A program made the translations under genes and the position numbers. This document shows positions 10,012 to 58,605 of a stretch of DNA of 64,000 nucleotides, in pieces; the stretch's first letter is position 1, and every line of letters starts with the position of its first letter. Below the pieces are notes generated by a model. That model was given only the letters and a program-made list of their open reading frames with translations. It had not been told where the DNA came from and searched no databases. The stretch comes from Bacillota bacterium (GTDB lineage: Bacteria > Bacillota > Clostridia > Clostridiales > Clostridiaceae), in NCBI GenBank assembly GCA_021781745.1, contig JAJXWH010000005.1:1-64000 (forward strand). The letters run 5' to 3'.

Positions 10012-10270
10012 TGCACGGTTTATAAATTTATTTTTTGAGGTGAGAAAAGGCTCCTCATGCGCTAATATTTAGTAATCAGAGATGCAGGATACGCCGACCT
10101 GCCAAAAAATAATTTAAATTTAGAGACTACCTTACAATTGTGTAAGGTGTTTTTTTTTGAAATATAATTGTTAACAAATTGTAAACAAAATATTGACTAA
10201 AGAACATATATTAATTTATTATTGAATTATCGAGTTTAAATCCGTTAGAGATGTAAAAGGGGGTGTAATA
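10012..10270. other. Intergenic with terminator and yicC leader
   Basis: A relatively GC-rich segment (10050-10102) with a small GCAGG/CCTGC hairpin (10084-10102) precedes the terminator. A weak promoter-like TTGACT (about 10194) with TTATTA 17 nt on may serve yicC. Confidence 0.35.
10129..10158 (+). terminator. Terminator after the PBECR-type gene
   Basis: ACCTTACA (10129-10136) pairs with TGTAAGGT (10141-10148), a 4-nt loop, then a run of T. Confidence 0.85.
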
Positions 10271-53341: not shown

Positions 53342-53713
53342 TTAATATAATCTAAAAGCATCTGTAATATGTTCTATTTTAATAAGTGAGTTATCCTTAT
53401 TTAAATAAATTTCTATAACGTCAAATCTTATATTAAAGTTAAATAACCTTTTATAGGATATATAGGAATTAGTTACTTTAATTATAGATTTTTGTTTTGA
53501 AAGGCTAACTGATTCTTTAGGTAATCCGTAATCATAGTTATACCTTCCTTTAACTTCTACAATAATCAACAAATTGTTGCAAGTGCATACAATGTCGATT
53601 TCGCCCAAACAATTTCTAAAGTTACAATCAAGTATATTATATTTATTAATTCTTAAATAATATTTTGCCAAATTCTCACAATAATTACCTATATCTTTAT
53701 TTAATTTTTTCAT
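53342..53713 (-). CDS. yraN: YraN / UPF0102 family endonuclease-like protein
   Basis: 123 aa on the minus strand. GEDIVCTCNNLLIIVEVKGR-like core: GEIDIV and VEVKGR give the D and EXK residues of a Holliday-junction-resolvase-like fold; the start has KLNKDIGNYCENLAKYYL. UPF0102 proteins sit beside comM/yifB and dprA in many genomes, as here. GGAG is 7 nt before the ATG. Inverted orientation relative to its neighbours. Confidence 0.9.
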   Translation of the reverse strand: MKKLNKDIGNYCENLAKYYLRINKYNILDCNFRNCLGEIDIVCTCNNLLIIVEVKGRYNYDYGLPKESVSLSKQKSIIKVTNSYISYKRLFNFNIRFDVIEIYLNKDNSLIKIEHITDAFRLY

Positions 53714-55407: not shown

Positions 55408-56463
55408 ATGAACTATGATTTATGGTTAATACTTTTGAATATAACTAATTTTCAAAAAATAAAGTTAATAAATAAATATAAAACTGCAGAAAATGTATAT
55501 AATAATTTCGAGGAAATTTTAAAAGAAAATAAAATGATATCTAAAAAAATAAAAAATTTTCAAAAGGAATCTTTGTATCATGAAGTTTTAAGTTTAGAAA
55601 AGACATTAGTAAGAAGAAATATAGGTTATATAACATACGCTAATCCTTTATATAGAGAGAAATTGAGCGGAATTTTAGAAACACCATTTTTTCTGTTTTA
55701 TATAGGCAATATAGACGTTATAAATAATAAATCTATTGGAGTGGTAGGGGCAAGAAAATGCTCCAATTATGGACTAACTGTAACAAAACTCTTGACAAAG
55801 GAGCTTATTACTAATAATATAACGCTTATAAGCGGAGGTGCAAGAGGTATAGATTCTGTTGCACATAAAACTGCTTTAGAGAACGGAGGATATAACATAT
55901 CAGTATTAGGATGTGGGATAGATATTGCGTATCCAGCAGAAAATAAAGCTTTGTTTTCAAAAATAGCAGAAAAAGGCGTAGTGATTTCTGAATTTTTACT
56001 TGGTACAGCTCCTCTAAGAGAAAACTTTCCTAAAAGAAATAGAATAATTAGTGGGCTTAGTGATGGAATAATAGTAATAGAAGCTTCTGAAAAAAGTGGA
56101 TCATTAATTACAGCAAGACTTGCTCAAAAACAACAAAAAGGCGTAATTGTTGTTCCAGGCTCAATATTATACTGTGGGGCAAGCGGCTCTAATAAATTAA
56201 TTAGAGATGGTGCCAGCATCTGTACAGATGTAGAAGACTTAAGAGTTTTGCTTAGTTTAGAACGTATTAATATTAAACCTATGAACTTTACACCTGAGAA
56301 AAGTGAAATATTAGAATTAATAACAGATTCACCAATTCACATAGATGATATTTTTAAGAATACGTCTGTTGATAGAGGGGCTCTTTATGCACTATTATTT
56401 GAGATGCAAATAAAGAGTGAAATAATTTGTTTACCGGGGAATTACTATGTGAAAACAATCTAA
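55408..56463 (+). CDS. dprA: DNA-processing protein DprA (Smf)
   Basis: 351 aa. Loads RecA onto incoming single-stranded DNA. Rossmann-like core with SIGVVGARKCSNYG, LISGGARGIDSVAH and PKRNRIISGLSDGIIVIEA; a C-terminal winged-helix-like domain (about 290-351). GGGAGA before the ATG. Followed by topA after 48 nt, a conserved dprA-topA pair. Confidence 0.96.
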   Translation: MNYDLWLILLNITNFQKIKLINKYKTAENVYNNFEEILKENKMISKKIKNFQKESLYHEVLSLEKTLVRRNIGYITYANPLYREKLSGILETPFFLFYIGNIDVINNKSIGVVGARKCSNYGLTVTKLLTKELITNNITLISGGARGIDSVAHKTALENGGYNISVLGCGIDIAYPAENKALFSKIAEKGVVISEFLLGTAPLRENFPKRNRIISGLSDGIIVIEASEKSGSLITARLAQKQQKGVIVVPGSILYCGASGSNKLIRDGASICTDVEDLRVLLSLERINIKPMNFTPEKSEILELITDSPIHIDDIFKNTSVDRGALYALLFEMQIKSEIICLPGNYYVKTI

Positions 56464-56471
56464 AAATGTGT

Positions 56472-56514
56472 AGGGGGTGAATACTTCATAAATTTTTATG
56501 AAGTTTGTGCTATG
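56472..56514 (+). promoter_or_regulatory. Structured ribosome binding site of topA
   Basis: AGGGGGTG (56472-56479) is 32 nt before the ATG at 56512. ACTTCATAA (56483-56491) pairs perfectly with TTATGAAGT (56496-56504). Removing the hairpin leaves AAT plus TTGTGCT, 10 nt, normal spacing. No in-frame ATG, GTG or TTG exists upstream back to the stop at 56461. Confidence 0.6.
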
Positions 56515-58605
56515 GGTCAAAAACTTGTAATTGTTGAATCGCCGGCAAAAGCTAAAACAATCGGCAAATATCTTGGAAAAAATTATATTGTAGAAGCATC
56601 AATGGGGCATGTAAGAGATTTACCTAAGAGTACATTAGGTGTTGACATAGAAAATAACTATACTCCTAAGTATATAACAATCAGAGGAAAGGGAGAATTA
56701 ATAGATAAGTTAAGAAAGGCCGCAAAAAAGGCTGAAAAAGTCTATTTGGCTACGGACCCTGATAGAGAAGGAGAAGCTATTTCGTGGCATTTGGCTAATA
56801 TTTTAAAAATCTCAGAAGACGAAACATGCAGAATTGTCTTTAATGAGGTTACTAAAACTGCTGTTAAGGCATCTATAAAAGAAGCAAGGAAGATAGATTT
56901 TGATTTAGTTGATGCACAACAAGCAAGAAGAGTGTTAGATAGACTTGTAGGATATGAAATAAGTCCAATTTTATGGAGAAATGTAAAATGGGGACTAAGT
57001 GCAGGAAGAGTACAATCAGCGGCTTTGAAATTAATCTGTGATAGGGAAAAAGAAATAAACGAATTTATCCCTAAAGAGTATTGGTCAATAGACTGCGTAT
57101 TAAAGAAAGAGAAAAAGAAATTTCCAGTAAGGCTTTCGACTTATAAAGGTAAGAAAATTGAAGTTGAAAATGAAGAAACTTCAAATAATATAATTGAAGA
57201 ATTAAATGATGGACAGTTTATTGTAAAAGCAATAAAAAAGGGAAAGAAAAATAGAAATCCCCTTCCACCTTTTACAACAAGCACACTTCAACAAGATGCA
57301 AATAGAAAATTAAACTTTATGACTAAAAGAACTATGTCTATTGCTCAAGGACTTTACGAAGGTGTTGAAATTAAAGGACATGGAACTATAGGTTTAATAA
57401 CCTATATGAGAACAGATTCCGTAAGAATTTCTGAAGAGGCTCAAGAAAGAGCTAAAGAGTTTATTGAAAGCACTTACGGAAAAGAGTATTTACCAAGCTC
57501 TCCTAGAATATATAAAGGTAAAAAGAATATTCAAGATGCCCACGAGGCAATAAGACCTACTTATGTGGAAATTACTCCAGAAGTAGCAAAGGAAAATTTA
57601 ACAGCTGAGCAATATAAATTATATTCACTAATATGGAATAGATTTATAGCTAGTCAAATGGCATCATGTGAACTGAACACAAATTCAATAGACATTATAA
57701 ATGGTGAATATAAATTTAAAGCATCAGGATCAGTAATTACTTTTGATGGTTTTATGAAAATATATGAGTATTCTAATGAAGATGATGAAACTTCAGTATT
57801 ATTGCCTGAACTAGAAGCGAATGAAGAACTTAATGTAGACTCCCTTCAAGGAACTCAACATTTTACTCAACCAGCACCTAGATATACTGAGGCGTCTTTT
57901 GTTAAATTACTAGAGGAAAAGGGTATAGGAAGACCAAGTACTTATGTACCTACAATTTCAACTTTGCTTGGCAGAAATTATGTTGTGAGGGAAAAGAAAA
58001 ATTTAATTCCAACTGAACTTGGTGAAATAGTAAATAATATAGTAAGTGAGTATTTTAAGCAAATAGTTGATATTGATTTTACTGCAGACATGGAAAAAAA
58101 ACTTGATAATGTTGAAGAAGGAACTGAGAACTGGACTCAAATAGTTGAGGAATTTTTTACTCCACTAAAGGCTGCAATAGAAAAAGCAGAAAAAGAAATA
58201 TCAAAAGTTGTAATTGAGGATAAAGTCAGTGACGTAAAATGTGAAAAATGTGGTCGAATGATGGTTATTAAAAGAGGAAGGTATGGAGAATTTTTGGCAT
58301 GTCCTGGATATCCAGAATGCAAGAATGCTAAACCTATAGTTGAAGAATTAGATGTACCATGTCCAGAATGTGGTAAAGCAATTGTTGCAAAGAAGAGCAA
58401 GAAAGGGAAAAAATTCTTTGGGTGTGTAGGTTATCCAGAGTGTAAATTTGTCAGCTGGCATGAACCTGTAAAAGAAAAGTGTCCTAATTGTAATTCGTAT
58501 ATGGTATTAAAATATTCAAAATCAAAAGGTAACTATATTCAATGTTCTAATAGTGAATGTAATTACAAAGAAGAAGTGAAAAAAGATGCTAAAGAAGAGG
58601 AATAA
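56512..58605 (+). CDS. topA: DNA topoisomerase I
   Basis: 697 aa type IA enzyme that relaxes negative supercoils. Toprim domain (about 1-115: VIVESPAKAKTIGKYLG, ATDPDREGEAISWHL), catalytic Tyr in GLITYMRTDSVRIS, GIGRPSTYVPTISTL, and three C-terminal Cys4 zinc fingers (about 568-690) starting CEKCGRMM, CPECGKAI and CPNCNSYM. The start MGQKLVIVESPAKA agrees with homologues, though the ribosome binding site is displaced (see 56472-56514). Confidence 0.97.
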   Translation: MGQKLVIVESPAKAKTIGKYLGKNYIVEASMGHVRDLPKSTLGVDIENNYTPKYITIRGKGELIDKLRKAAKKAEKVYLATDPDREGEAISWHLANILKISEDETCRIVFNEVTKTAVKASIKEARKIDFDLVDAQQARRVLDRLVGYEISPILWRNVKWGLSAGRVQSAALKLICDREKEINEFIPKEYWSIDCVLKKEKKKFPVRLSTYKGKKIEVENEETSNNIIEELNDGQFIVKAIKKGKKNRNPLPPFTTSTLQQDANRKLNFMTKRTMSIAQGLYEGVEIKGHGTIGLITYMRTDSVRISEEAQERAKEFIESTYGKEYLPSSPRIYKGKKNIQDAHEAIRPTYVEITPEVAKENLTAEQYKLYSLIWNRFIASQMASCELNTNSIDIINGEYKFKASGSVITFDGFMKIYEYSNEDDETSVLLPELEANEELNVDSLQGTQHFTQPAPRYTEASFVKLLEEKGIGRPSTYVPTISTLLGRNYVVREKKNLIPTELGEIVNNIVSEYFKQIVDIDFTADMEKKLDNVEEGTENWTQIVEEFFTPLKAAIEKAEKEISKVVIEDKVSDVKCEKCGRMMVIKRGRYGEFLACPGYPECKNAKPIVEELDVPCPECGKAIVAKKSKKGKKFFGCVGYPECKFVSWHEPVKEKCPNCNSYMVLKYSKSKGNYIQCSNSECNYKEEVKKDAKEEE

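Follow-up and report, generated by a model that had tools for sequence, protein, structure and literature searches.

How a ribosome begins translation when the Shine-Dalgarno (SD) sequence lies far beyond the usual distance from the start codon, with a perfect hairpin in between, is the question raised by the start region of topA in a bacterium of the Clostridiaceae. The window analysed here is a stretch of 64,000 nucleotides (contig JAJXWH010000005.1, positions 1 to 64,000, assembly GCA_021781745.1) from a genome of 5.73 Mb (G000), whose TopA residues 1-300 are 99% identical to those of Clostridium sp. LS. The topA site is a real, conserved element, for which a split ribosome-binding site is the best reading on comparative sequence evidence.

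The dprA-topA gap in the window

The two ORFs flanking the gap are taken, by sequence resemblance, to be dprA (351 aa) and topA (697 aa) (Table 1). The SD begins 8 nt downstream of the dprA stop codon (TAA, 56461-56463) and reads A56472, GGGGG, TG56479. An earlier note on this DNA had described an SD-to-ATG gap of 32 nt filled by a perfect 9-bp hairpin, which leaves 3 + 7 = 10 nt outside the stem, and all its coordinates and counts are correct. Its claim that the ATG is the sole start codon likewise holds: the gap contains no other in-frame ATG, GTG or TTG, the frame being open back to the dprA stop, and the protein start MGQKLVIVESP agrees with the TopA N-terminus of relatives.

Table 1. Features of the topA start region, in window positions
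Feature	Position	Strand	Basis or remark
dprA CDS (name presumed)	55408..56463	+	351-aa ORF
Distant SD half, AGGGGGTG	56472..56479	+	letters read directly; alignment A1
Hairpin 5' arm, ACTTCATAA	56483..56491	+	fold of the element; covariation
Loop, ATTT	56492..56495	+	length and sequence variable among leaders
Hairpin 3' arm, TTATGAAGT	56496..56504	+	GAAG in the window
Linker from stem to start codon, 7 nt	56505..56511	+	letters read directly
Candidate alternative helix, GGGGT 56474-56478 with ACTTC 56483-56487	56474..56487	+	SD masked if formed; less stable than the hairpin
topA CDS, ATG start (name presumed)	56512..58605	+	697-aa ORF

Spacing between the SD core and ATG was surveyed over 799 kb of three genus genomes and averaged 7.7 +/- 2.0 nt (133 of 556 ORFs, the survey reaching back 20 nt from each ATG); topA of the window, counted in the same way, has 34 nt. 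Taken by itself, the 43-nt element has a folding energy of -10.8 kcal/mol (z = -3.5, equalled by 0 of 200 shuffles), and in its best fold four SD bases additionally form weak pairs with the linker; in the model ensemble the window's SD Gs are 59% unpaired, the average over leaders being 75%. When it is folded within 121 nt of sequence, the total energy is unremarkable (z = -0.04), and the hairpin is still present in the centroid. Among 9138 sampled overlapping 34-nt stretches of the window, 18 contain a perfect 9-bp hairpin with a loop of at most 8 nt, and 195 fold as well as the SD-ATG gap. Since perfect 9-bp hairpins thus occur elsewhere in this A+T-rich window, the single sequence is weak evidence, and conservation is decisive. 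The covariance models of Rfam 15 gave no match to the element at the gathering threshold, and at E values up to 10 the region 56300-56700 gave three weak matches, none over the element.

Conservation and covariation of the element among relatives

The topA gene is present in 68 of 68 genus genomes. Upstream regions were compared from 67 of them (the region of G048 ends at a contig end and was left out) together with C. cadaveris, C. polynesiense and C. algidicarnis, giving 70 regions, 65 of them distinct. Of the 65 distinct leaders, 64 show a G-run followed by an ATG, with a hairpin of 6 bp or more between them (G-U counted as a pair); the exception, L123 of G049, carries a degenerate element that is still split under a looser classification. 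A covariance model built from 60 of these 64 leaders returned topA as the top match in 65 of 67 genus genomes (all except G048 and G049), as expected of a model built on those leaders. In the window genome topA is its sole strong match (E = 4.9e-16), the next (E = 0.037) being the opposite strand of the same hairpin.

The alignment of the dprA-topA gap across relatives that the earlier note had proposed shows the stem kept, with compensatory changes. In A1, a MAFFT alignment that was not fitted to structure (60 of the 64 leaders, 59 distinct rows, lacking L010, L013, L017 and L038), the SD hexamer GGGGGT is invariant, and two-sided changes occur at 5 of 7 stem pairs, with a covariation of 0.292 compared with 0.133 in shuffles and at most 0.163 with slid partners. 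In A3, which comprises 83 loci (82 distinct rows) chosen for carrying the element, other genera included, and which is biased towards structure because it was aligned to the model, two-sided changes occur at 6 of 7 pairs, 90.7% of cells are paired, and covariation is 0.425 (shuffled 0.176, slid at most 0.131). A quick maximum-likelihood tree was made from 47 TopA N-terminal sequences; 18 of its 44 inner forks are weakly supported, and pair states are readable in 37 of the 39 split rows. It requires no fewer than 3 changes at stem pair 3 (C-G or U-A, but U-G in L006 and L007) and no fewer than 5 at pair 5, where one change gives an unpaired A-A. Judged by this tree, the stem-pair changes are not one inherited event. 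Occurrence in 64 of 65 leaders, covarying pairs and a near-fixed outer distance together show that the element is not a chance inverted repeat.

These leaders also bear on where translation starts. Were it to begin elsewhere, for example at ATA 56488, the hairpin would be coding sequence; the frame is indeed open across the gap in 22 of the 64 element-bearing leaders, the window included, but in the other 42 an in-frame stop lies inside the gap, gap length varies out of frame, and the covariation is of the RNA type, which leaves this reading a negligible probability. Usable in-frame ATG, GTG or TTG codons occur within the gap in 12 of the 64, at differing positions. Inspection by eye gave no sign of coding conservation in the leaders upstream of topA, and a candidate upstream coding sequence or leader peptide beginning at the GTG within AGGGGGTG was rejected because it meets stops at shifting places (GTGTAA in some leaders). 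The hairpin might alternatively be a weak transcription terminator or attenuator upstream of topA, given the 4-6 T that follow it in many relatives (by eye); against this, the window's clade (TTTGTGCT after the stem) and leaders such as TTGATGGT have no U-run, the short stems are rich in A+T, upstream of them lies an intact extended SD, and the distance to the ATG is near-fixed, so that we consider a terminator very improbable.

Outside the genus, 62 of 65 topA loci, from 42 genera, could be parsed: 44 are split, 17 have an ordinary close SD, and 1 is unclear. Ordinary leaders have no hairpin, and their SD core stands 4-13 nt from the ATG, often as TGGAGGGGATAAG-ATG. Counted per genus, 26 are split, 15 ordinary and 1 unclear, none being mixed, with many genera represented by one locus. 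The three unparsed loci are, by eye, ordinary (L403) or split (L419 and L201), and at L392 the automatic helix call is the upper part of a stem visible by eye. While 25 of the 65 loci entered through a model match, the other 40 were chosen mainly to cover unseen genera, so that any selection bias among them would run against the split form; the 38 parsed loci not fetched through the model comprise 20 split, 17 ordinary and 1 unclear. The ordinary form is found in C. bowmanii, C. punense, C. lacusfryxellense, C. algoriphilum, C. psychrophilum and three Caloramator records, and on the 47-row TopA tree the split and ordinary forms are separated by one change.

Leader geometry and the working Shine-Dalgarno sequence

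Over the 83 leaders, the distance from the end of the G-run to the core stem is 6.0 +/- 0.5 nt and that from the core stem G to the ATG 7.2 +/- 0.9 nt, their sum being 13.2 +/- 1.0 nt (range 11-16); the hairpin itself measures 20.2 +/- 4.1 nt (12 to 39), and the full distance from G-run to ATG 33.4 +/- 4.2 nt (24 to 52). Length variation thus falls mostly within the part that would loop out. Because loops accept insertions in any hairpin, the constancy of both outer pieces is the telling part, and a model in which the hairpin masks the SD explains the constancy of the downstream piece only. The outer 13.2 nt, counted from core pairs, exceeds the 95th percentile (11) of ordinary spacing; most leaders have extra outer pairs beyond the core stem, and maximal stems that include them leave a mean of 7.3 nt after GGGGGTG, or about 9 from the G-run.

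We consider it probable, from these comparative patterns, that topA has a split ribosome-binding site whose hairpin stays folded and looped out during initiation. The 30S anti-Shine-Dalgarno would pair with AGGGGGUG while the hairpin remains folded, the path from SD core to AUG would shrink from 34 to about 12 nt (UG and the 10 nt not taken up by the hairpin), and the start codon would thereby reach the P site. The hairpin would be needed for efficient initiation, its pairing would be kept by selection, and breaking the stem would be predicted to lower TopA synthesis. The simplest reason for its persistence would be a ratchet, with no regulation required: once the spacer holds a hairpin, loss of pairing would ruin the spacing, and hence the hairpin persists. 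The looping-out proposed in the earlier note is well supported by covariation, by fixed outer distances, by the either/or pattern of split and ordinary leaders and by the recurrence at other genes described below, from which initiation on the folded hairpin appears likely. Its suggestion that TopA synthesis could depend on temperature or on a protein or RNA finds no support, as the loop is variable and the hairpins average -7.5 kcal/mol over leaders, a fair stability at 37 C; no indication of a sensed signal emerged.

A different reading, which we think unlikely, takes the GGAG of the 3' arm, 6-10 nt from the AUG, as the working SD masked by the hairpin, with AGGGGGUG serving as a standby 30S site until the hairpin opens. 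GGAG occurs in the 3' arm of 53 of the 83 aligned topA leaders, and an SD-like core 4-13 nt before the ATG in 42 of 61 distinct genus leaders (5 nt in 14, 4 nt in 28), so that a second SD may contribute. The remaining 19, which include the window and its clade, have no proximal core, GGAG is replaced by GAAG or AGAG in 27 of 83 leaders while GGGGG is invariant in A1, and in other genera a 5-nt proximal core is present in 12 of 44 split topA leaders and absent in 32 (4-nt cores uncounted). The proximal core is likewise absent in 27 of 28 nusG, 24 of 25 yaaA and 9 of 17 pyrG split leaders. A second SD would therefore suit many topA leaders, but not those of the window's clade, nusG or yaaA. As to an SD masked in the manner of a thermosensor, the G-run lies outside the hairpin in all 64 element-bearing leaders; where the arm is GGAG, a second SD may be masked.

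It is also conceivable, though distinctly improbable, that the 5' arm acts as a switch, pairing with GGGGU (off) or with the 3' arm (on), with some signal shifting the balance. RNAalifold favours GGGGU:RCUYC on A1, this pairing is possible in 97.8% of A3 cells, and 82 of 83 leaders have pyrimidines at the first four positions of the arm, flips such as A-U to U-A occurring only higher in the stem. The alternative helix shows no two-sided change, because the SD Gs never vary; its mean energy is -3.5 kcal/mol compared with -7.5 for the hairpin, it is equal or better in 3 of 83 leaders, and the CUGC arm of most pyrG leaders breaks it (by eye). The four 5'-arm bases in question lie opposite the SD Gs. 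Sequence conservation at the stem base CUYC/GRAG exceeds what pure geometry would require, and the geometric reading does not fully account for the constancy of the 5'-arm pyrimidines.

Recurrence at other genes and related known systems

In a geometry scan of 1.6 Mb, made up of stretches of four genomes, the order SD-hairpin-start was found at 10 of 205 starts having an SD 14-51 nt upstream, while dinucleotide shuffles gave 1.4 +/- 1.2 cases and none of 300 reached 10. Three of the ten (topA, pyrG and a NUDIX gene) were known beforehand and lay in hand-picked stretches; the remaining 7 still exceed the highest shuffle count of 5. Control motifs gave 1/324, 0/963 and 0/945 motif places compared with 10/963, a softer comparison because the control motifs do not precede starts. 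What the genes have in common is SD, helix and start codon, and stem and loop sequences that differ between genes are expected if the helix serves to remove spare spacer nucleotides.

Two of the other genes from the scan, nusG and yaaA, were traced through the genus. For nusG, which gave matches in 48 of 59 genomes, an SD with a stem of at least 5 bp is present in 29 of the best 30 genus loci, and covariation is 0.324 (shuffled 0.235, slid at most 0.151; alignment A6, 27 distinct rows, lacking L338). A search of the window's own assembly gave no nusG match at the threshold used. In most of the 30 nusG loci (L332-L361) the SD GGAGG is followed by an AGGUGA-like 5' arm and the 3' arm UCACCU, which resembles an anti-Shine-Dalgarno. 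Three equal-scoring nusG matches in G019:C2 (501153, 503727 and 522654) are either a duplication or an assembly repeat.

The gene of an S4-domain protein, presumably yaaA, shows the layout in 24 of the best 30 genus loci, with matches in 57 genomes; its arms (L362-L391) are often UGCAUAAA/UUUAUGCA, between GGAGG and a start that is often TTG. Covariation is 0.204 (shuffled 0.098, slid at most 0.113) over 17 of the 24 leaders, alignment A7 omitting seven with other stems, and the count of two-sided pairs shows no excess, being reached by 379 of 500 shuffles. In the window genome the yaaA leader (L432) reads, by eye, GGAGGA, TAAATATT/AATATTTA and ATG, with an A+T-only stem.

For pyrG of other genera, reached via weaker model matches (82 genomes with a match), SD, hairpin and start are found in 17 of the best-scoring 30 loci (16 of 29 when L276 is excluded), with arms that are mostly CUGCUU/AAGCAG. 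Thirteen of the 30 have no hairpin, and 11 of those have a 5-nt SD core near the start. Pairing amounts to 86.2% and covariation is weak (58 of 500 shuffles reach the same). Within the genus of the window, pyrG was examined at L270 and in the window genome, and both leaders are ordinary. Bacillus pyrG transcription starts with slippage in a G-run; a G-run serving in this way at pyrG or topA was rejected, as 16 pyrG leaders and the topA leaders show, by eye, no consistent -10/-35 at a fixed distance.

Single cases of the layout precede genes that we recognize from sequence as lepA, spoIIAA, a parA-like gene and rnfC. A pooled multi-gene MAFFT alignment brought 22 of 40 stems into register, with many shifted. 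At what is presumably a ytfJ-like spore gene (L294:11880-11948, G000:C92), AGGAGGTG is followed by a hairpin (CCCCTAA/TTAGGGG); a second, close SD lies within its 3' arm and may be masked.

With its covarying conservation and the same layout at other genes, the topA hairpin is probably folded when the ribosome starts, and precedents for such initiation exist. To our knowledge, only a handful of tested mRNAs initiate across a folded hairpin. Phage T4 genes 38 and 25 appear to be the closest known relatives of the topA site: their SD-AUG distances of 22 and 27 nt are shortened by a helix to 5 and 11 nt, the gene 25 helix is kept in close relatives and missing in distant ones, and tests showed that the helix aids initiation (PMC3014915). 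The topA site shares with them an SD-AUG distance beyond the normal range (34 compared with 7.7 +/- 2.0 nt), a helix that restores a workable distance (10 nt in the window, and 13.2 +/- 1.0 nt, at the long end, over the leaders) and conservation of that helix at the RNA level. A competing SD near the AUG is absent from 19 of 61 leaders of the genus set, the window among them; the others have a 4-nt core (28) or a 5-nt core (14). Unlike the T4 cases, sites of the topA type are chromosomal, occur at several unrelated genes and in many genera of a single bacterial family, and are recognized from sequence evidence alone.

In the E. coli polyamine modulon (oppA, rmf, rpoE, cpxR) the SD is distant or obscure relative to the AUG, and a stem in the initiation region is thought to reposition it (PMC4191411, PMC10917681). 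The modulon stems carry bulges, the target of spermidine, whereas the window's topA stem is a perfect 9-bp helix. The thrS leader of E. coli, also a split ribosome-binding site, is bound by the synthetase. Its folded domain separates an upstream single-stranded stretch from the initiation site, whereas the topA hairpin lies between SD and AUG. At thrS the ribosome accommodates a long hairpin, still folded, within its binding region (PMC3936740). The precedents extend somewhat beyond the few phage genes named in the earlier note, the polyamine-modulon mRNAs and thrS being also related. Thermosensors and translational operators with a masked SD have a short stem beside the start codon. The topA stem likewise lies beside the start, with GGAG in the stem of many leaders; unlike in those systems, a strong, invariant SD lies outside it.

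The open-licence PubMed Central literature contains, in our search, no account of such sites at clostridial topA, nusG, yaaA or pyrG, in agreement with the earlier note, which knew of no description for clostridial topA. The site is of a known kind, with a breadth across genes and genera that we have not seen described. A chromosomal set across tens of genera, with covariation clear at topA, would make initiation across a hairpin a normal bacterial option; such sites may escape gene finders and ribosome-binding-site calculators, and dozens of natural variants in hairpin length and stem would be at hand for measuring how much the 30S tolerates between SD and start. A more speculative extension, which we hold to be rather unlikely, is that split, hairpin-bridged sites form a standing Clostridiaceae initiation class at a group of information-processing genes (topA, nusG, yaaA, pyrG and others), whose folded state would be read by a common factor or condition to give a joint response.

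Elsewhere in the window, a minus-strand yraN-like ORF (53342-53713) is flanked by two plus-strand genes, rnhB and a comM-like one (all three names presumed), and positions 10030-10110 match the skipping-rope RNA of Rfam (RF02924, 75.7 bits).
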